Shown here: in pieces, positions 5,402 to 14,935 of the stretch
How the letters are laid out: every line of letters begins with the position of its first letter
Numbering within the stretch: the first letter of the stretch is position 1
DNA from: Mayamaea pseudoterrestris
Taxonomy: Eukaryota > Bacillariophyta > Bacillariophyceae > Sellaphorales > Sellaphoraceae
DNA length: 64,000 nucleotides
NCBI GenBank assembly: GCA_027923505.1
Contig: BROI01000029.1
Location: 265,370-329,369 of the forward strand
Reading direction: 5' to 3'
Translations under genes and position numbers: made by a program
Notes under the pieces: generated by a model
What the model was told of the DNA's origin: nothing
Databases searched by the model: none
Seen by the model: the letters and a program-made list of their open reading frames with translations, nothing else

Positions 5402-5746
5402 GTCCCAGCAGCTAAAAAAGACTTTTGAGTTCGGTAATGTTCAATTGGAGTGTTTCGCACTCGGGATGTGGATTGGATGATTGGATCAGGTCGTGTTTCT
5501 GCTCACCACAAGAATTGCTGCTCACCAATGAGTGCGCCGTTTCCAAACTTGAAAATGTGCTACAATTTCGGCAGCTCTGCCTCACAAACTACAACCTTCG
5601 ATGGAGACTAACACTTGCTTGTAGAATAACTGACTACTATGTGGCTGCAGGCAATGGAGAATGTTCGCTCCATGGCCGTCGGCAGGCAGAAGCTTATGAA
5701 TGAGGCCGCTCAGTGCTGCATGTCGTACCGGTAACTTTGTGAACCG
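5402..5746. other. Divergent promoter region with TACCGGTA palindrome
   Basis: 345 bases lie between the membrane-protein gene (-) and eIF2A (+). The only structure seen is the palindrome at 5726-5733, annotated separately. No gene is supported here. Confidence 0.4.
5726..5733. promoter_or_regulatory. TACCGGTA palindrome upstream of eIF2A
   Basis: Perfect 8-base palindrome 13 bases before the first ATG of eIF2A. One of seven copies found by eye at 5' gene ends in the window. A role as a transcription-factor or initiator site is inferred from its position only. Confidence 0.45.
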
Positions 5747-7591
5747 ATGAGACGCTTCAAAGATCTTCCGCGAACGACGGCCACACAAAAAGCTATCGCC
5801 ACATCTTTCACCATGGTTGATGCTGCAGCAACGGCTGTCAATTCCGAGGTCGGAGCAATAAGCGATCCTCCATGCCGCGTCTTGGCGCGCAGCAAGACCA
5901 AGGTGGAGTTTTTTGTGGTGTCGGAGCGAAATGGAGGTGCAGCTGCATCAGCCCCTTCTCCGACGGTCCTTCATGCCGGCCCGACATCATGGCAACAGTA
6001 CGCTCCAGATGGAAGCTGCGTTTATCTGCAAACGCCAAAGGGAGTACTCAAGATTGACTTGACGAATGACAAGCTAGAGCCGAATGGAGACGCCACGCCG
6101 TTTCTGCAAAGCACGACTGCAAGCGCCATTCAGATGATGCATGTTTCGCCTTCGGGATCCTTTTTATTGACTTGGCAACGGCCGACTCCCGATGATGCCA
6201 ATAATCTAAAACTATGGAGCGCTTTAGATGGAGCTTTACTAGCGAGTTGGCCACAAAAGCAGCTCCGTCGCGAGTCCTGGCCAACGCTACAATGGACTTA
6301 TGATGAAAGGTACGCCTTGCTTCTGGTTCAAAATGAAATTCGCGTTTATCCACAAACAACCATACGAGCAGCTGGCAAGGATTCGAGCAATACACGGTTT
6401 ACGGACAAAATTCGCGTGCAAAACGTTAGCTGTCTGAGTGTCGCGCCGCAAGCCAAAAACGGCAGCCCCTACTACTTTACCACCTTTTGTCCGGGAGGCA
6501 AAGACAAGCCGGCTCGAGGTGCCTTTCAGGAATACATTCCTGGTCAACCTGACTTGCCGGCTCGTTTATCAAAATCATTGTTTCAAGCTGAAGAAATGAA
6601 GTCGCATTGGAGTCCTCAAGGTGATGCCGTTCTGATATCGCTCCAAACATCGGTTGATCATTCGGGTCAGTCCTACTACGGCAGCTCCCAAGTCTTTCTC
6701 ATGGCAGACTTTGTCACGGATGCTGTAGCAGTCGAAGGCGTCACTCCGCCCGTCATGGCTGTCGAGTGGATGCCTCACCCGGAACGACCGCCGGCCTTTA
6801 TTGTTGTCGCAGGCAAAATGCCAGCTTTGGCGTCCCTGCACCACGGCCGCACGGGCAAGCCAACCTTTTTGTTTGGGCAAGCGCACCGCAACACTGTACA
6901 CTGGAGTCCGCATGGAAGATTCGTGTTGATCGGAGGATTTGGGAACTTGGCGGGTGGCATGAGCTTTTGGGACAAGAATAAATGCAAGCTAGTGTCGGGG
7001 TGTGCGGCGAATGTGAACAACCAGTTGAGAGCAGAAGCTGTTGTTGGATGCCATTGGTCTCCCGATAGTCGCATGGTGCTGACTAGTACAACATCACCGA
7101 GGATGAATGTTGATAATGGCATGCGACTGTTCAAGTACAACGGAAGCGAACTGAAAACTCTTCCGTGGGACAATGCTGCGTATCGACCTGATCAGTTGTT
7201 GGAAGCCACCTTTGTGCCGGCGAATGTTGATGTATATCCGGATCGACCGCAAAGTCCCAACCTAGTGGAGCAAGAGCAACAACAATTGCAGAAGCAACAA
7301 GTACCCGGCAAGGCAAACGGACCAGTGATTTTTACCAAAGCTCTGCCTTCGTCATCTGCAGTAGAAGACTCGAAGCCAGTTGCGCGCTACGTTCCTCCGT
7401 CAGCGCGAGGAAGGGCAGGGGGCGGAACTAGCCTGGCGGAACGCATGCGAAAAGAAAAGGAAGGAAGCCTGCAGCAGGCCATCTTTGCCGCAGCTGAAAG
7501 CGGAAGGAAAAGACTACACTATATGTTACAGTCGCCAGCGTGGCGACACCATACGGCTTTGAAAGCTGCGTGGTTGCAGATAAGCCCCTGA
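5747..7591 (+). CDS. eIF2A: Translation initiation factor eIF2A, 5' part, truncated by a retrotransposon
   Basis: eIF2A is a WD-repeat beta-propeller protein linked to alternative Met-tRNA delivery and non-AUG initiation. The reading frame shows the propeller repeats with SP-G pairs (MHVSPSGSFLLTW, SHWSPQGDAVLIS, VHWSPHGRFVLIGGFGNLAG, CHWSPDSRMVLTSTTSP) and the later YVPPSARGR motif before the basic tail. Host coding sequence ends at base 7481 (about residue 578). The remaining 36 codons to the stop at 7589-7591 are read from the left repeat of the inserted element. The missing C-terminus resumes at 14571. The first ATG is at 5747; the Met at 5813 (MVDAAAT) is an equally good start. The chimeric product keeps the propeller but loses the helical C-terminal region that in this family contacts other initiation components. 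Confidence 0.88.
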   Translation: MRRFKDLPRTTATQKAIATSFTMVDAAATAVNSEVGAISDPPCRVLARSKTKVEFFVVSERNGGAAASAPSPTVLHAGPTSWQQYAPDGSCVYLQTPKGVLKIDLTNDKLEPNGDATPFLQSTTASAIQMMHVSPSGSFLLTWQRPTPDDANNLKLWSALDGALLASWPQKQLRRESWPTLQWTYDERYALLLVQNEIRVYPQTTIRAAGKDSSNTRFTDKIRVQNVSCLSVAPQAKNGSPYYFTTFCPGGKDKPARGAFQEYIPGQPDLPARLSKSLFQAEEMKSHWSPQGDAVLISLQTSVDHSGQSYYGSSQVFLMADFVTDAVAVEGVTPPVMAVEWMPHPERPPAFIVVAGKMPALASLHHGRTGKPTFLFGQAHRNTVHWSPHGRFVLIGGFGNLAGGMSFWDKNKCKLVSGCAANVNNQLRAEAVVGCHWSPDSRMVLTSTTSPRMNVDNGMRLFKYNGSELKTLPWDNAAYRPDQLLEATFVPANVDVYPDRPQSPNLVEQEQQQLQKQQVPGKANGPVIFTKALPSSSAVEDSKPVARYVPPSARGRAGGGTSLAERMRKEKEGSLQQAIFAAAESGRKRLHYMLQSPAWRHHTALKAAWLQISP

Positions 7592-7782
7592 GCGTGTTGA
7601 AGAGCATCCTTTGATCCTCCTTCGCCCTGCTCGGAGCCATTCTTTTGAAGAAGGCAAGCTCCTTCCAAGCAGCCCCTCCTGTTGTTGTTGTTGTTGTTGC
7701 TACAGTCGCTTGTCCTTTGATTCCTTTAGAGAGCTGCCTCGAGTGCTGCTTTTGACAAGGAAAGAAGATAGAATTAAGTGCA
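7482..7782 (+). repeat. Split direct repeat A1 (left end)
   Basis: 301 bp matching A2 throughout apart from one fewer GTT unit in the (GTT)n tract near 7681. It begins directly after host base 7481 and ends eight bases before the gag ATG at 7790, so it probably contains the element promoter. Confidence 0.9.
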
Positions 7783-7789
7783 TTCCTCC

Positions 7790-8692
7790 ATGGCCGCCGT
7801 CAATGGAGCTGACGCCGCTGCCGCAGCCGCCGCCATTCCTTTTGCCGGGGCCACTCTCCCTACGGTCACCTTCCTTGCCCGTTACAGTCAGGCAAGTAAT
7901 GATCCTTTGAACGGTGAATACAATGGTTTGAACGGTCTCACTCGCACTGCCGATCCTCCTTTAACTGCAGCTGATTGCTTTAAAGGTTTGGTCGACACGC
8001 CCTTGGAGACCGCTCCCATCCTTGTTGCTGCCTTGGTCGAGGCCGACCAGCCTCTGCATGGTTGCATTCACGCCATTGTCGGGGCCCAGCGGTACCTTGC
8101 CGTTGCAGGTCGCACCAACCGCTGGGACAATCGAGTCATCGGTTTTGGTACGGAGGTTTTCCAAGGCACGGCAGGCCTCGTCGAACTGACGGTGGCAGAT
8201 TTTCATCTCAGTCCATTGAACGGGCACTTCACAAATGTGCCAGCGACATTGGCACAAACAATGGAGCGATTGCAAGGCTTGCCTGCTGGCACTGAGTATT
8301 TGCCTCCATTGCAGCCGGTTGACGAAGACGATGCGACCATTGTCCAAGGTCGTGCGCGGATGGTTCAGGCCTTGCCCGTGCGGTTCGCACCGCTGGTGAT
8401 TGGGCAGGGTTTTACGCGGCGCGAATTCTTCGACCGTTTGGCGCCGGCTATTATTGATGCGGGGCTGGAACATGTCTTGACCAACCTTTGCACTTGGCTA
8501 AAGCTATTGGTTACTTGCCGAGCCGCTGATGGAGTGCCTACTATTCCAGGGAATTGCACGAGCCGCACCGAGCTGGGATGCCGATGTGGCCCGGTTCACC
8601 TCGACCAACTTGCGGCGCCTCTTGCCGGACTTGTTCGCCCAACCCGATCCAAATCAAAGTGCTTTGGTCAACCTTCTGGAGCGCCAAGCTAA
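7790..8692 (+). CDS. Retroelement gag, N-terminal part
   Basis: Predicted nucleocapsid-like protein at the usual first position of a YR retroelement. The first ATG is 7790, eight bases after A1. It starts with an Ala-rich run and then a predicted helical region of about 250 residues with no catalytic motif. Recognisable gag-like sequence in this frame appears to continue to about 8550. Beyond that the frame turns into Cys/Arg-rich sequence of poor quality while the +1 frame takes over. Hence either a +1 shift joins the two parts, or a single-base indel has broken gag. Confidence 0.65.
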   Translation: MAAVNGADAAAAAAAIPFAGATLPTVTFLARYSQASNDPLNGEYNGLNGLTRTADPPLTAADCFKGLVDTPLETAPILVAALVEADQPLHGCIHAIVGAQRYLAVAGRTNRWDNRVIGFGTEVFQGTAGLVELTVADFHLSPLNGHFTNVPATLAQTMERLQGLPAGTEYLPPLQPVDEDDATIVQGRARMVQALPVRFAPLVIGQGFTRREFFDRLAPAIIDAGLEHVLTNLCTWLKLLVTCRAADGVPTIPGNCTSRTELGCRCGPVHLDQLAAPLAGLVRPTRSKSKCFGQPSGAPS

Positions 8693-9944
8693 TGATGCAG
8701 CCGAAGTCCGAGCCCGTGAAGAGGCTCGCGCCGAAGCAGCCAAGGCACCCAAGAAAGTCTCCGACATTTTAACTGCGACACAATTACGGCGCACTAGCAT
8801 CATGCTACGCATTGCTTCACCAAGTGGCTATCCCGAACTGCACCACCTCCTAGCCGCCACGGCTGACAAGGACAAGCGCAAGGTAGTGCAAGACCATCTA
8901 GTTGAGGGTGCGGTGGCAGCGGGTAACCAAGACTATGCTCCTATTGTGACGCCGCACATTAGCCGACGGCTTCAAGATGGAGACTTTGCAGGCGCCGACA
9001 AGGATGATTTTAGTGGAGGCATCAATGTCTTCATGATGGTACCACCCAATCTGACTGTTCTCCAAGGCTCAAACATGTCAGCTGAAGTCCTCCAAGCGGC
9101 GCAGGCGCATGACGACATCCTAAGTGGCGGTCATGCAATCACCTACCAAGATACTAAGGAGCTCCAGGCTGTTACTTCCAAAGTGGTGCTGCCAACCAAC
9201 TACTTCCTGGCAGCACGCATGTGCCGGGCCTACCTAATCCTCCTCACACAGTACTTTGGGGAAGATCATGAGCTTGTCTGCACATTGGAGCATTGGACCA
9301 AGACATTTGAAGCCAACATTCCTACCTATCAGCACGCCTTGGCTAGCCTTGGTGAGCAGGGACCCTCCCTCATGCTGCGAGCAGTCCAAGTCCGCTTCCA
9401 CCGTTGGTTCAAGACTATGGAGACTTCTCCCACCTACAAGGCCGTCCCGGATCTGGCCAGTGTCATGGAGGACTTGGAAATTGGCAATCTCTCTGTCCTG
9501 CCTCCTTTGCCTGCCAAGTATTGCACTCAACTAAGCAAGCAACTCAACAAGGCAGCCGACATCCCAGGATCCATCAAGGTTGGTAGCAGTGTCAACAGCA
9601 AAGGCACTCATACCACCGCAGCTTCTACTTTGACTGGTGCAAGCGGCAACAGTCCTTCTACCAAGGCGAATGAGGTGGTCATCAACCTGGATTACAACCC
9701 AGCCTTTGAAGCCTTCCAGAAGGACAAGCGCCAACTCCGCTTGATGAGGAAGAATCCCGAGGACAAGAGTTGGCCCACCAAGGATAGCATCCCAGGACTC
9801 GCTACTGCTCCCTGCATGGCTTATCATTTGCGTGGCAAATGTGACTCATTGTGCAAGCGCAAAGCCGACCACATCCAGCATAGTCAGGCAGCTGATGATG
9901 CCTTGTTGGCTTGGGCATTGGAGCATCTTGAGCCCCGCAATTGA
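8529..9944 (+). CDS. Retroelement gag, C-terminal part with CCCH-like knuckle
   Basis: 471 codons ending in TGA at 9942-9944. It continues the gag protein in the +1 frame relative to the upstream part, or may start at its own ATG at 8529. It has a charged linker (AAEVRAREEARAEAAKAPKK), a long helical region, and near the C-terminus a Cys/His cluster (CMAYHLRGKCDSLC, then KRKADHIQH) that resembles a zinc knuckle for nucleic-acid binding. The frame stays open after the TGA and runs into the reverse transcriptase frame. Confidence 0.72.
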   Translation: MECLLFQGIARAAPSWDADVARFTSTNLRRLLPDLFAQPDPNQSALVNLLERQANDAAEVRAREEARAEAAKAPKKVSDILTATQLRRTSIMLRIASPSGYPELHHLLAATADKDKRKVVQDHLVEGAVAAGNQDYAPIVTPHISRRLQDGDFAGADKDDFSGGINVFMMVPPNLTVLQGSNMSAEVLQAAQAHDDILSGGHAITYQDTKELQAVTSKVVLPTNYFLAARMCRAYLILLTQYFGEDHELVCTLEHWTKTFEANIPTYQHALASLGEQGPSLMLRAVQVRFHRWFKTMETSPTYKAVPDLASVMEDLEIGNLSVLPPLPAKYCTQLSKQLNKAADIPGSIKVGSSVNSKGTHTTAASTLTGASGNSPSTKANEVVINLDYNPAFEAFQKDKRQLRLMRKNPEDKSWPTKDSIPGLATAPCMAYHLRGKCDSLCKRKADHIQHSQAADDALLAWALEHLEPRN

Positions 9945-9988
9945 CGGTCCGGCGGGCGGATCCCTATATGTTATAATCCGCTGACGCC
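9942..9988 (+). promoter_or_regulatory. Predicted stop-codon readthrough signal between gag and RT
   Basis: The gag stop is TGA followed by CGG, the leaky context known from several plant virus readthrough genes. Six bases further on, an arm at 9951-9961 can pair with 9976-9988: GCGGAT with ATCCGC, extended by GGCG with CGCC across a small asymmetric internal loop, closing a 14-base loop. The frame downstream (9945 onward) has no stop before the RT open frame. A gag-RT fusion by readthrough is the inference. Confidence 0.6.
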
Positions 9989-12191
9989 TGCAACCTCTGC
10001 TGTTCCACCATCCAGAGTCGCAGGTCCAGTTGTCGAAAATGAAGAAGTAGTTCCAGTAATTAAGTCGCCCAGTAGTAAACGTTTTAAATCTACTGTGTCA
10101 CCTGTCCTATCTCCTGAACTTGGTAAGCAAGCTGGCGTGCATGTTGTGCAGAAAGAACCATTGTTACTGCCCACACCACGTCTCTTGCCTACTGCTGCCA
10201 GGAATGTAATCAAATTGGCCTCTGTCCCCGGTCCCACTGCGTCCCTGGTCCAAGTCCAAGCAAGTCAACTCCAAGCAAGTCGTCAAGTTGTCCGCCCTGA
10301 GTGTCGTCCAACCTTGGCTCCTAGCACCAATCCATCTGTTGCCGTCACACCTACACACCAGGCTGTGGCTTCTCCAGGCCCCCTTGAATCGTCTGTCGCC
10401 GTCGCACCTGAGGATGTGGCTTCTCCAGGCCTTCACACCGCTGATGCCTCTCCAGTGGCTGCTCCAGTCCCATGTACTGGCGCCTCCCCAGTTGTGGTGT
10501 CACACCAAGCCATGGCTCCACACTTGGTTGCCAGCAAGGCTGCTCCTACCATGGCACCACACTTGGCATTCAGCAAGGCTGCTCCACTCTCAATGGAAGC
10601 CACTGCTGCACCTGCACAGTCACCTGCCATGGCAACTGGCTGGGCTCCACACTGGGCCTCTCAGCCAAAGGCACACGACCTGGTCTCCCCAAAGGCATCT
10701 GCACCTCCTTGCACTTTGCCTGGCAGTCTTCCTACATCCAAGTTGCCTTCACACACCAACACCTCATCCTTGCAACTACTTGATGATGAATTGGGGCAGC
10801 TGGTTCAGGAGGCATCTGCACGTCTTGCTTTGTCTCCGGATTGGCGTGCCTTTGTGGAGGCCAGCCGCGGCGCCTCTGACTTACAGCCCAGCGTCAAGGA
10901 TCTGGATCATCCAGCTGCACATTTGCTACACCAATTGGATGCACGTGGCGCACCAGCCATTATGCAGAAAAAGCCTTGGACACTAGCACAAAAGCAAATG
11001 GCGCTCAAGAGGGGCCCTCACAAGTCTGCCTTTGAACACACTGCTTTTCTGCGGGAGGAGTTCACTGACATGATCAAGAAAGGCCACTGGACCGTCCTAC
11101 CAGCCTCACAGGTCCTTGGAATGGAACAACTCCGACTCAGTCCACTTGGTGTTGTGCCTCAGCGCGACCGGCGACCTCGGACCATCTCCGACTACAGCTA
11201 CTTTGGGGTCAATGATGACACTGCTGCAGTTGCGCCACTGGAGTCCATGCAGTTTGGCCGCACTTTTTATCGTTTGCTGCAACGCATTGCTCGAGCCAAC
11301 CCCCGCTATGGGCCCGTCCACATGTCCAAGTTGGATATTGCTGATGGATTTTACCGTGTGCGTTTGCTGCCTGGAGATATCCCCAAGCTTGGTGTCTTGT
11401 TTCCTCAGTGTGCTGGTGAGGAGCCTCTGATTGCTTTTCCACTCACACTGCCGATGGGTTGGATTCATTCTCCACCCTATTTCTGTGCAGTGACAGAGAC
11501 CATTTGTGACTTAGCCAATCAAGCCTTCCAGTGTGGTGCCAAGTCACCACCGCCTCACCGTCTGGAGTTACAAGCTCAAACCTTACCAGCTACCACCACT
11601 CCAACACCCCTGCCTGGAAGTGTGCCCGCACAAGGCTCTGTCCCACCTATTGTGACTGTGGAGGATATGCCCATCAATGATCCTAGTGTGGCGCCTCTTC
11701 CTGCTCCACGCCAGCGCTCTGATATCCTCCAGCGTCCTGTTGCATACAATGACTTGTATGTGGATGACTTGATTGCTTTAGCCCAAGGCAATCCGGATCG
11801 GCTGCTAAGGTTGCAACGTGTTCTCCTGCACACATTTGACCAAGTTCTACGCCCACTGGAGCCCACTGACTTACCTGCTCGTCAAGAACCAGTGTCTGTC
11901 AAGAAGTTACTCAAAGGAGATGGTGCTTGGACCACTCGCAAGCAAGTCCTGGGTTGGTTGGTTGATACCGTCGCCATGACTGTTGCATTGCCAGCCCATC
12001 GCCTGGAACGCCTACGTGAGATCCTAGCTAGTATCCCTCCTACTCGGCGCCGCATTGCCACCAAGCAGTGGCACAAGTTCTTGGCGAGCTGCGCTCCATG
12101 TCCTTGGCCATTCCTGGCAGCCGTGGTCTGTTCAGTTCCTTGCAAGAGGCCTTTCGCCATCCTGATGGTCACTCTGGTCGTTTGCGGTTGA
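9945..12191 (+). CDS. Retroelement reverse transcriptase
   Basis: The frame is open from directly after the gag stop, with no ATG needed if readthrough is used. The first 290 residues are a Pro/Ala/Ser-rich linker with repeated Val-Ala-Ser-Pro phrases. The RT palm follows: a fingers motif (ISDYSYFGVNDD), motif A (MSKLDIADGFYRVRL, catalytic Asp), motif B (LPMGWIHSPPYF), and motif C with YVDD in YNDLYVDDLIAL. A long non-conserved Pro-rich insertion separates motifs B and C. After LGWLVDTVAMTVALP and the thumb the frame degrades at about 12080, where the RNase H frame takes over by a -1 shift. Confidence 0.9.
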   Translation, partial: RSGGRIPICYNPLTPATSAVPPSRVAGPVVENEEVVPVIKSPSSKRFKSTVSPVLSPELGKQAGVHVVQKEPLLLPTPRLLPTAARNVIKLASVPGPTASLVQVQASQLQASRQVVRPECRPTLAPSTNPSVAVTPTHQAVASPGPLESSVAVAPEDVASPGLHTADASPVAAPVPCTGASPVVVSHQAMAPHLVASKAAPTMAPHLAFSKAAPLSMEATAAPAQSPAMATGWAPHWASQPKAHDLVSPKASAPPCTLPGSLPTSKLPSHTNTSSLQLLDDELGQLVQEASARLALSPDWRAFVEASRGASDLQPSVKDLDHPAAHLLHQLDARGAPAIMQKKPWTLAQKQMALKRGPHKSAFEHTAFLREEFTDMIKKGHWTVLPASQVLGMEQLRLSPLGVVPQRDRRPRTISDYSYFGVNDDTAAVAPLESMQFGRTFYRLLQRIARANPRYGPVHMSKLDIADGFYRVRLLPGDIPKLGVLFPQCAGEEPLIAFPLTLPMGWIHSPPYFCAVTETICDLANQAFQCGAKSPPPHRLELQAQTLPATTTPTPLPGSVPAQGSVPPIVTVEDMPINDPSVAPLPAPRQRSDILQRPVAYNDLYVDDLIALAQGNPDRLLRLQRVLLHTFDQVLRPLEPTDLPARQEPVSVKKLLKGDGAWTTRKQVLGWLVDTVAMTVALPAHRLERLREILASIPPTRRRIATKQWHKFLASCAPCPWPFLAAVVCSVPCKRPFAILMVTLVVCG

Positions 12192-12820
12192 CCCAGGCAG
12201 TGCATGACTTTCTGGAAGATTTTCGATGGATTGCGGCTGGTCTAGAGACACGACCAACACGCATTGCTGAATTGATTCCTGATGACCCGGCTATTGTGGG
12301 CACTACTGATGCATCTGGTCGTGGCGCTGGGGCCGTGGCCTTTGTCTCCATGCCCACCAATGCCCTACAACCAATCTTGTGGCGTGCCAGGTTCCCTCCT
12401 CACATTGAGGCGGACTTGGTGAGTTTTGACAACCCACATGGCACTATTACCAATAGTGATTTGGAATTGTTTGGGACGGTTCTCCATCATGATGTTTTGG
12501 CACACAATTTTGACATACGTGAGCGCACCATTCACACCTCCCATGACAACACTCCGGCTGTCGCTTGGCAGCGCAAGGGCTCTACTACCTCCACTGGCCC
12601 AGCAGCATACCTCCTCCGATGCCAGTCCTTGCATCAACGCACACATCGCTATGTTCCCCTCCATGATTACATTCCTGGTCCAGTGAATGAAATGGCGGAC
12701 AAGGCCTCCCGTTTGTGGCATTTGTCTGACTCTGAATTACTCACCTACTTTAACACTCATTACCCACAGCCTCTACCTTGGCAACTGTACCAACCACGAC
12801 CCGCGATGCTTTCTACCATG
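12068..12820 (+). CDS. Retroelement RNase H domain
   Basis: Continues the RT polyprotein in the -1 frame. The acidic RNase H residues are visible in order: Asp in GTTDASGRGAGAVAF, Glu in TNSDLELFG, Asp in HTSHDNTPAVAW, and Asp in VNEMADKASR. The start is really a frame transfer around 12075-12085 rather than an initiation codon. The frame is open to 13303, but after about 12820 it runs in parallel with the recombinase frame and no longer looks conserved. The RT/RNase H junction needs either a programmed -1 shift or a mutation; a single missing base would also explain it. Confidence 0.8.
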
Positions 12821-13926
12821 ATTACCGCACTGTCCAAGACCAGATCCGTGCCGGAGTCGTTCCTTCAAGAGCCGCCTCCGCGGACAAGCATTGGGCCTCA
12901 TGGTGTGACTTCTGTCTTGAACACCATCTCGACCCTTTCCTCAAAACCTTGGATGACCCAGTCCCAACTCTCCAAGTCTGGGCAACCCGTTACCGCGATG
13001 GCCGACTCTCCGCCAGCGGTCAACCCGTCCGCGCTGCAACAGTGGCGGACGCCATCCGTGCGGTGGGCCAGACGTTCGCCCGCATGGGGTCCCACGACAT
13101 TCGACAAGATTCCTGTGGCAAAATTGACTACCGGCTGCAGCAACAATTTAAATGCTGGCACCGCGAAGATCCAGCCCCTACTCGCGTCAAACCAATTCCG
13201 GTCACCATTGTGCAACACATCCTGGCCCAAGCCTATTCTGGACCAGGCTCACCTGCCCTGCAAACCTTTGCCGACATCATCACCCTGGGTTTCTTCTTCT
13301 TGATGCGCCCTGGTGAGTACACTGGCACCCACGGTGGCAACACCCCACCACTACGCCTAGGTGCAGTCCAACTCTGTCTGGGTTCCCGCCGTCTTGATCT
13401 CTTTGCTGCACCAGCTGCAGATTTGTTGGCGGCTTCCCAGGTGTCGTTCACATTTGATAATCAGAAAAATGGTGTCCGCGGTGAAGTCATTAGCCAAGGC
13501 CGCACTGGCTTGTTCCATTGCTGTCCGGTGCTTGCTGCTGCTCGGCGCATTCTTTATTTGCGTGAGCATGGTGCTACTGCCCACACACCGCTTGCAACCT
13601 ACTGGTGTGCTAATCGTCCTCTTGGCGTCAAGAATGGGGAGATTACGCGCACCCTTCGCAATGCTGTCATCGCACTTGGTCCTACCCTGGGCTTAGACCC
13701 CTCCGACATTGAGGCTCGCTCCCTGCGCGCTGGTGGTGCTATGGCTCTCCTCAATGGCGGCTGCGATGACAATATTATAAAATTGATGGGCCGCTGGCGT
13801 TCTGACGCAATGCTACGCTACCTGCATGGCACTGCTGCTCACACCACCGGCTACGCTGCTCGCATGGTCCAAGGTGGCACCTACACCCTGGTCCCTGGCA
13901 CCTTTGTCCCGCAGCAGCCCATCTAA
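12778..13926 (+). CDS. Retroelement tyrosine recombinase (integrase)
   Basis: About 382 residues. This enzyme replaces the DDE integrase in this order of elements and joins a circular DNA copy to the target through a phosphotyrosine intermediate. The N-terminal part is a helical SAM-like DNA-binding region. Catalytic residues: first Arg in FFFLMRPGEYTG (about residue 177), second Arg in ARSLRAGGAMALL (about 317), Trp in LMGRWRSDAM in place of the second His, and the nucleophile Tyr in LRYLHG (about 348). In the HxxR box the His position is occupied by Arg (RSLR). The frame is -1 to RNase H and overlaps it; no ATG is near the start, so translation probably uses a frameshift or reinitiation. 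Confidence 0.88.
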   Translation: MATVPTTTRDAFYHDYRTVQDQIRAGVVPSRAASADKHWASWCDFCLEHHLDPFLKTLDDPVPTLQVWATRYRDGRLSASGQPVRAATVADAIRAVGQTFARMGSHDIRQDSCGKIDYRLQQQFKCWHREDPAPTRVKPIPVTIVQHILAQAYSGPGSPALQTFADIITLGFFFLMRPGEYTGTHGGNTPPLRLGAVQLCLGSRRLDLFAAPAADLLAASQVSFTFDNQKNGVRGEVISQGRTGLFHCCPVLAAARRILYLREHGATAHTPLATYWCANRPLGVKNGEITRTLRNAVIALGPTLGLDPSDIEARSLRAGGAMALLNGGCDDNIIKLMGRWRSDAMLRYLHGTAAHTTGYAARMVQGGTYTLVPGTFVPQQPI

Positions 13927-14012
13927 CCTACCCACCACACTCGCTTCGCTCGTTTCCCACCCGTCTCTTTGGGTGTCCTTTGTCCTCCAAGATGAAAAGT
14001 GGGTGGCAAGGA

Positions 14013-14130
14013 GGCGCACGCCTTGGGGCGGCGAGGAGGCAAATTAAGTAAAATGCCTTACTCTCCACCCAACTGTGTGCCATCCTTAAAACCCTGTAGC
14101 TGGAAGTAGTGGCTAAGACGGGGAAACCCG
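14013..14130 (+). repeat. Split direct repeat B1
   Basis: 118 bp reading identical to B2. It directly abuts A2 with no spacer, forming the internal B1A2 block that mirrors the circle junction. Confidence 0.9.
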
Positions 14131-14434
14131 TCTTTGCCGCAGCTGAAAGCGGAAGGAAAAGACTACACTATATGTTACAGTCGCCAGCGTGGCGACACCA
14201 TACGGCTTTGAAAGCTGCGTGGTTGCAGATAAGCCCCTGAGCGTGTTGAAGAGCATCCTTTGATCCTCCTTCGCCCTGCTCGGAGCCATTCTTTTGAAGA
14301 AGGCAAGCTCCTTCCAAGCAGCCCCTCCTGTTGTTGTTGTTGTTGTTGTTGCTACAGTCGCTTGTCCTTTGATTCCTTTAGAGAGCTGCCTCGAGTGCTG
14401 CTTTTGACAAGGAAAGAAGATAGAATTAAGTGCA
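14131..14434 (+). repeat. Split direct repeat A2
   Basis: 304 bp, the same as A1 apart from one additional GTT unit. An 18-base pyrimidine-rich spacer (14435-14452) separates it from B2. Confidence 0.9.
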
Positions 14435-14452
14435 CCCACCCTCCCGTCCCTC

Positions 14453-14570
14453 GGCGCACGCCTTGGGGCGGCGAGGAGGCAAATTAAGTAAAATGCCTTA
14501 CTCTCCACCCAACTGTGTGCCATCCTTAAAACCCTGTAGCTGGAAGTAGTGGCTAAGACGGGGAAACCCG
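14453..14570 (+). repeat. Split direct repeat B2 (right end)
   Basis: 118 bp reading identical to B1. It ends in GGGAAACCCG, after which host eIF2A sequence resumes at 14571. Confidence 0.9.
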
Positions 14571-14935
14571 CTAAGATAGATGCCAAGAAACCAATACCAG
14601 CAACCGTCAAGAGTGCGCTGACTGGTAAAGCGATTCCTGGTTTAGTAGCTGACACGGGTAAGAGTGCTTCTGCTTTGAAACGAGAGAAGCAAAAACTCAA
14701 GAAGCAGCAAGAGGAAGCCAAGCAGAAGCAACAGGAGATACTTGAACAACAACAGCAACAAGCGGAAGCCCAAGAGCCAGTAGATCCTGCTAAAAGAAGT
14801 AAGAAAATCAACAAAATATTGAAGCAGATTGATGAACTGAAAACCAAGGATCCATCTGCGCTTGACGAGGATCAAAAGGCAAAGATTGCGTCGGAAGCTG
14901 GTCTACGGGAAGAGCTTAAGAAGCTAGGAATATAA
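14571..14935 (+). pseudogene. eIF2A: eIF2A 3' fragment separated by the retrotransposon
   Basis: This is the missing C-terminus of eIF2A. It has a basic helix ([19 protein letters not shown]), a Gln-rich run, and a terminal motif ([14 protein letters not shown], then [10 protein letters not shown]) that matches the family's usual ending of KKL-Q-LK followed by LEDLELGI-like residues. The fragment has no ATG of its own in frame. Joining host base 7481 to 14571 keeps the codon phase (GCC A + CT AAG), which shows the pre-insertion gene was continuous. The intact protein would be about 700 residues. Unless another allele or copy exists, full-length eIF2A is not made from this locus. Confidence 0.88.

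Follow-up and report, generated by a model that had tools for sequence, protein, structure and literature searches.

The gag and reverse transcriptase (RT) frames of a tyrosine recombinase (YR) retrotransposon in the diatom Mayamaea pseudoterrestris are separated by an in-frame stop codon, and the best explanation of this arrangement, to which we give a probability of roughly 80%, is that programmed readthrough of the stop makes a Gag-RT protein in this element and its relatives. The explanation is suggested by the stop itself, its conservation, the common phase of the two frames, the missing AUG at the start of the RT frame, a hairpin predicted for four of the six families of related elements (C-F), and signs of selection ahead of the first in-frame AUG in one of them (D). 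Among the points against it, the UGA-G of families C-F is outside the two standard readthrough contexts. The means by which YR retrotransposons adjust Gag production relative to RT are not well known. If the explanation is correct, diatoms and the order of YR retroelements join the known users of programmed readthrough, and a single host offers natural signals of both kinds, UGA and UAG, for comparison.

The element is approximately 7.1 kb long and lies in the window (the whole stretch of 64,000 nucleotides that was analysed; all features below are on its forward strand), inserted into the protein-coding region of an eIF2A gene whose upstream part matches the Pfam eIF2A profile with E 1.2e-49. 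Pieces of this host gene flank the element (5735-7591 and 14540-14935), and its C-terminal coding part is cut off by the insertion. The gag gene is read as two ORFs, 7790-8692 and 8502-9944, the frame being broken between 8502 and 8692; the second ORF ends in TGA and carries near its C-terminus a CCCH-like knuckle, a motif seen by eye that matches zf-CCCH_12 in Pfam only below the cut-off. Directly behind and in phase with gag follows the RT/RNase H frame (9945-12191), which is broken between 12032 and 12191 and continues as an ORF at 12032-13303, and an ORF aligned with other YR frames overlaps it in a different frame (12754-13926). Comparison of repeats, which were sought in family A only, shows a split and direct arrangement, A1 ... 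B1 A2 B2: A1 (7479-7782) matches A2 (14128-14434) at approximately 98.7%, with B1 at 14013-14130 and B2 at 14453-14570. The copy in the window is damaged: gag and RT each contain a single frame break. Two siblings of the same family, L037 and L038, are open at both of these points: gag is one frame of 721 codons and RT one of 1119 codons, the sole interruption is the stop at the junction, and YR is open as well.

We identify the RT from the RVT_1 profile, which is found in 15 of 19 aligned RT proteins at E ≤ 0.1, together with the invariant residues of the protein alignment; the window copy taken by itself reaches E 0.036, below the Pfam cut-off. Its best match is the public model MPSEU_000961700 of M. 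pseudoterrestris, a diatom placed in Sellaphorales, with 99% identity. The identity of the YR is less firm than that of the RT. Phage_integrase scores below the cut-off in families A and C (E 0.17 in the window element) and has no match in B, a sequence search of the YR against the PDB gave no match, and the assignment draws on aligned residues that we take to be of the catalytic type. Pfam scans of the element proteins, in which RT and YR themselves score weakly, contain no methyltransferase, a domain whose absence would point to Ngaro over PAT. The predicted layout, with split direct repeats and a putative YR in place of a DDE integrase, is consistent with Ngaro or PAT elements within the DIRS order.

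A YR frame also lies behind RT in family C (L060). In A, B and C its offset from the RT frame is identical, 2 mod 3, i.e. −1, and the overlap of the two frames is 430-550 nt (12754-13303 in the window; L037, L040 and L054/L060). In the YR frame, methionine first occurs at residue 9 in B, 55 in C and 111 in A. A search of the overlap for a −1 slippery heptamer found one in A and none in B and C, so that no signal is shared.

At the junction in the window copy, the arrangement described by the earlier note is present in the sequence: gag ends in TGA at 9942-9944, CGG follows at 9945-9947, and a potential hairpin, the best local fold, begins six nucleotides behind the stop and spans 9951-9988. 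The two ORFs have the same phase across the stop, and the downstream frame, which had been described as the RT frame, open with no ATG needed, has its first in-frame ATG at codon 190 behind the stop. The hairpin of this one copy is marginal when compared with shuffled sequences. Its z-scores are −0.53 over 99 nt and −0.77 over 44 nt; starting 5 nt behind the stop, they run from −1.92 at 45 nt through −1.68, −1.03 and −1.17 to −0.38 at 100 nt. A pattern modelled on family A, TGACGG-N3-GGCRGGC, is unspecific across the genome, with eight sites, four of them in the family-A element, against five for the reversed control.

To compare the junction among siblings, which were reached by sequence and protein searches, we read 17 junctions from six families in the same genome. 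A nucleotide search with the junction alone found three near-identical copies and one divergent gag copy. The stop codon and an in-phase RT frame are present at 17/17 junctions, the RT frame staying open over the stretch that was read, 71 codons or more, and the gag frame reaches the stop at 16 of the 17. The exception is the family-A copy on contig C4, where the gag frame is interrupted further upstream and a three-base insertion immediately precedes the stop; TGA-CGG and the sequence that follows are intact. The proposed strategy is not tied to the UGA-CGG named by the earlier note. Specifically, TGA-CGG is kept in all four copies of A (the window and contigs C11, C24 and C4), TAG-GGG is found in all five of B (C9, C11, C41, C30 and C12), TGA-GTA and TGA-GTC in the two of C (C17 and C4), TGA-GGA in the four of D (two on C10, one each on C19 and C4) and in the one of E (C24), and TGA-GGG in the one of F (C12).

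Several related sequences were left out of the 17: a copy of E on C5 (98% identity in RT), whose junction falls outside the stretch L063; fragments at C4:192k, C14, C27, C19:567k, C18, C7 and C20; a partial second B copy at C11:21079; and distant RT frames on C9 and C2 (27-38% identity). Also left out was a gag copy on C1 (L045, 2506-3918), a gag-derived protein of 466 aa annotated as MPSEU_000020600, which has an internal deletion and ends in TGA-CGG with RT absent behind it. The CCCH-like module of family-A gag (CxxYHxRGxC...C...DH) also stands at or near the ends of three ORFs beside host-type genes: L048 2044-3624 (C2), L049 2287-3804 (C11) and L050 2388-3713 (C23), of which L049 and L050 sit in similar blocks, as if duplicated. 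These ORFs may be host genes that descend from gag, or the gag module may have come from them. Ahead of one family-B copy, in L041 1-2400 (C11:13000-15400), all three forward frames are open and encode a repeating peptide, apparently a tandem repeat.

The six families are not independent origins; by sequence comparison they fall into two deep lineages, A-B and C-F. RT identity between B and A is 58-61% in the four longest matches, with gag at approximately 23%, and within C-F it is 60-79%, the latter group being reached from A only via a relative at 25-28% identity. Both lineages keep an in-frame stop, and its class varies between families (UGA-CGG, UAG-GGG, UGA-G). We lean towards the broader view that stop readthrough is the general means of polymerase dosing in the YR retrotransposons of this diatom, and perhaps in diatoms at large; on this view it is the layout that would be preserved, and one stop codon could take the place of another.

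If RT is made by readthrough, translation covers the codons that lie behind the stop and ahead of the first in-frame AUG, and we examined this stretch for signs of coding. In family D, over approximately 200 codons before the first in-frame AUG, silent differences are in excess (pS 0.073-0.130 vs pN 0.022-0.035; three pairs, not independent of one another, give binomial p of 2e-4, 3e-5 and 7e-3). The one pair in family C has no silent excess before the AUG (pS 0.042, pN 0.046); differences within A and B are too sparse for the comparison. Protein-level selection from the stop onward, as expected of translation, is clear in family D only. In C-F the peptide directly behind the stop is conserved, and conservation of the gag C-terminus extends as far as the stop.

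These data bear on the possibility that RT is a separate cistron, restarted at the first in-frame AUG or translated from a transcript of its own, with the preceding stretch untranslated. The public model MPSEU_000961700 is drawn in this way, from an internal AUG 190 codons behind the stop (930 vs 1119 codons), and an unexpected promoter was found at the gag-pol junction of the element Tca2 (PMC2194720). We nevertheless regard a separate cistron as unlikely, given the selection ahead of the AUG in D, the conservation in C-F of the peptide that begins right after the stop and the open, in-phase frame at every junction read. Other-frame AUGs would also be met first: seven precede the first in-frame AUG in A (counted in the window copy) and six to nine in D, not counting one copy on C10 (D_C10b) in which the in-frame ATG is not reached; B has none. 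If instead readthrough is used, public RT models that start at an internal AUG omit coding sequence, 190 codons in the case of MPSEU_000961700.

Initiation of RT at a near-cognate codon upstream of the AUG would likewise account for selection on the codons that precede it. We consider this very unlikely, since inspection by eye found no such codon at a common position in the six families, and since it leaves the phase match of gag and RT in both lineages unexplained. Diatom genes contain introns, and an intron could take the stop out of some transcripts; however, no splice donor is common to C-F at the stop when inspected by eye, and the sequence is conserved on both sides, so that splicing would remove conserved coding sequence. 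We regard removal of the stop by an intron as highly unlikely.

The damage elsewhere in the window copy could suggest that the stop is itself a decay mutation in dead copies, an explanation hard to credit when the stop is found in 17/17 copies of six families, including two family-A copies whose gag, RT and YR frames have no other interruption. The earlier note had named a sense codon at this place in related copies as evidence against readthrough. In pattern searches of the genome, with five weak sites left out, we found no element copy with a sense codon at the stop site; counts of repeats in such searches are lower bounds. The pattern behind the stop of family A occurs at four places in the genome, and that of C-F at nine, eight of which are copies already read (C1:7381 was left out). 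The pattern of family B occurs at nine places, the five with zero or one mismatch being the five copies; the other four have two mismatches and lie outside the sense-codon check. The pattern TGA-N6-TCCTCCACRTGG occurs at eight places, every one a C-F junction, and its reversed control at none. Reading of UGA as selenocysteine, or an altered genetic code, for which the UGA in five of the six families might speak, can practically be dismissed given the UAG of family B at the same place, and an Rfam search of window positions 7400-14700 at E ≤ 5 gave one weak, unrelated match and no SECIS or other plausible element.

For C-F, RNAalifold predicts a hairpin with a common 12-bp helix that starts six nucleotides 3' of the stop. 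Its 12 outer pairs are unbroken in all seven rows of the alignment. Of the compensatory stem changes raised by the earlier note, one was found here: a single pair switches from A-U in D and F to G-C in C and E, both changes falling at third codon positions. The covariation score of the true alignment is matched by 0/500 shuffles, and its share of paired cells by 2/500, in a test that ignores relatedness; the number of co-varying pairs is reached in 223/500 and the number of pair types in 499/500, and sliding the partners by three columns gives scores of 0.066 and 0.075 vs the true 0.087. Covariation in C-F, resting mainly on the one pair, is suggestive. A second helix, CUACUA/UAGUAG, is invariant, so that only its changing loop speaks for it.

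Folding energy gives stronger support than covariation in C-F. Over two kinds of shuffles and three lengths, z lies between −3.8 and −6.6 in E and F, between −3.2 and −4.5 in D and between −1.6 and −2.7 in C; the folds of D, E and F clearly exceed those of both dinucleotide and synonymous-codon shuffles. For comparison, four RT frames were sampled at 25 random places each, and three of these 100 reach z ≤ −1.9, the lowest being −4.2. We also find that, where two families have the same residue, they use the same codon more often within the first 15 codons than past codon 45; this is so in 6/6 family pairs, with p < 0.05 in three of these non-independent pairs.

In family A the four copies are identical at the junction, so that the stem contains no changes between them. 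The fold of A over 42-60 nt has z of −1.5 to −1.9 against dinucleotide shuffles and −2.2 to −4.2 against synonymous-codon shuffles; that of B goes from −1.9 at 42 nt to +0.2 at 60 nt, and the B copies on C11 and C41 fold less well, their changes weakening the hairpin. A basal helix common to A and B, likely by eye, was rejected: in A it reaches −10.7 vs −17.7 kcal/mol for the best 60-nt fold, and the A-B alignment has no change on both sides of the helix. Hairpins in A and B are plausible on these predictions. Combining all six families by Fisher's method gives p of 1e-7 to 8e-6 against dinucleotide shuffles and 3e-9 to 6e-6 against synonymous-codon shuffles, and combining A, B and D alone gives 5e-4 to 8e-3 and 3e-5 to 7e-3 respectively, values that flatter the case because the window lengths were picked after a first look and C-F are related.

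Taken with the siblings and the stop contexts, the C-F hairpin supports the interpretation of the gag/RT junction as a readthrough site, in the window at 9942-9947. Under readthrough, most ribosomes would terminate at the gag stop and release Gag, and a minority would insert an amino acid at UGA (UAG in B), aided by the nucleotides 3' of the stop and by the hairpin a few bases downstream. Continuing in phase, these ribosomes would make a Gag-RT-RNase H fusion and so, as happens in gammaretroviruses, supply a limited amount of polymerase attached to Gag. The readthrough event, its frequency, the inserted residue and the packaging of the fusion are what we infer.

Relatives outside this genome suggest an in-frame stop in other species as well. 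One gag from a metagenome (P0121, 43% identity) stops at the alignment column where family-A gag does, and the gag knuckle pattern, modelled on A and C-F, is found in none of the best 120 of 1232 A-type RT relatives and in 0/15 C-type relatives, in searches that could return fusions of up to about 1950 aa and 1750 aa respectively. Viral contigs searched with RT, YR, P0002 and A6 contained no relatives, and a search of genome contigs gave one degenerate 3-kb contig of a bacterial MAG (L053), uninformative for the junction.

We found no earlier report of readthrough in YR elements among the titles, opening parts of abstracts and passages available, a sample that covers the older literature incompletely. 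The elements here share with Ngaro/PAT elements the Gag, RT/RNase H and overlapping YR frames and the layout A1-[ORFs]-B1A2B2, and differ in the proposed gag-RT readthrough signal, which is not described in the available parts of the sources (PMC8547959, PMC4157794, PMC3783388). Diatoms are also the hosts of the LTR retrotransposons described in PMC2806351, but those are Ty1/copia and Ty3/gypsy elements, and the available parts of that paper describe no readthrough signal. Closer in layout is Tca2 of Candida albicans, in which gag and pol are in phase with one UGA between them and a 3' structure is proposed (PMC2194720). Tca2 is however an LTR element, unlike the YR element here, and its junction alone directed no readthrough in S. 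cerevisiae (PMC2194720), so that the layout by itself proves nothing.

Among viruses, type II readthrough is defined by UGA followed by CGG or CUA and frequently has an extended stem-loop on the 3' side (PMC3542737 section 14); it is used by tobra-, peclu-, furo-, alpha- and coltiviruses (PMC3542737), and the earlier note was right to call it an established class. Type III is UAG-GGR, or more broadly UAG with G or purine-rich sequence next to it; UAG-G with a 3' structure is found at gag/RT of gammaretroviruses and in Tombusviridae, and rice stripe necrosis benyvirus has UAG-GGG of type III (PMC3542737). In both types the 3' structures often lie approximately 8 nt behind the stop (PMC3542737). 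Family A is like type II in its UGA-CGG (4/4) and in a potential stem 6 nt behind the stop, and differs in that the site is a gag/RT junction of a diatom retrotransposon, known from its sequence, with a stem that is shorter and marginal. Family B is like type III in having UAG-GGG (5/5) between gag and RT, and differs in that its fold is weak in some copies. We claim membership of neither type; in their stop contexts, the junctions of A and B match viral types II and III.
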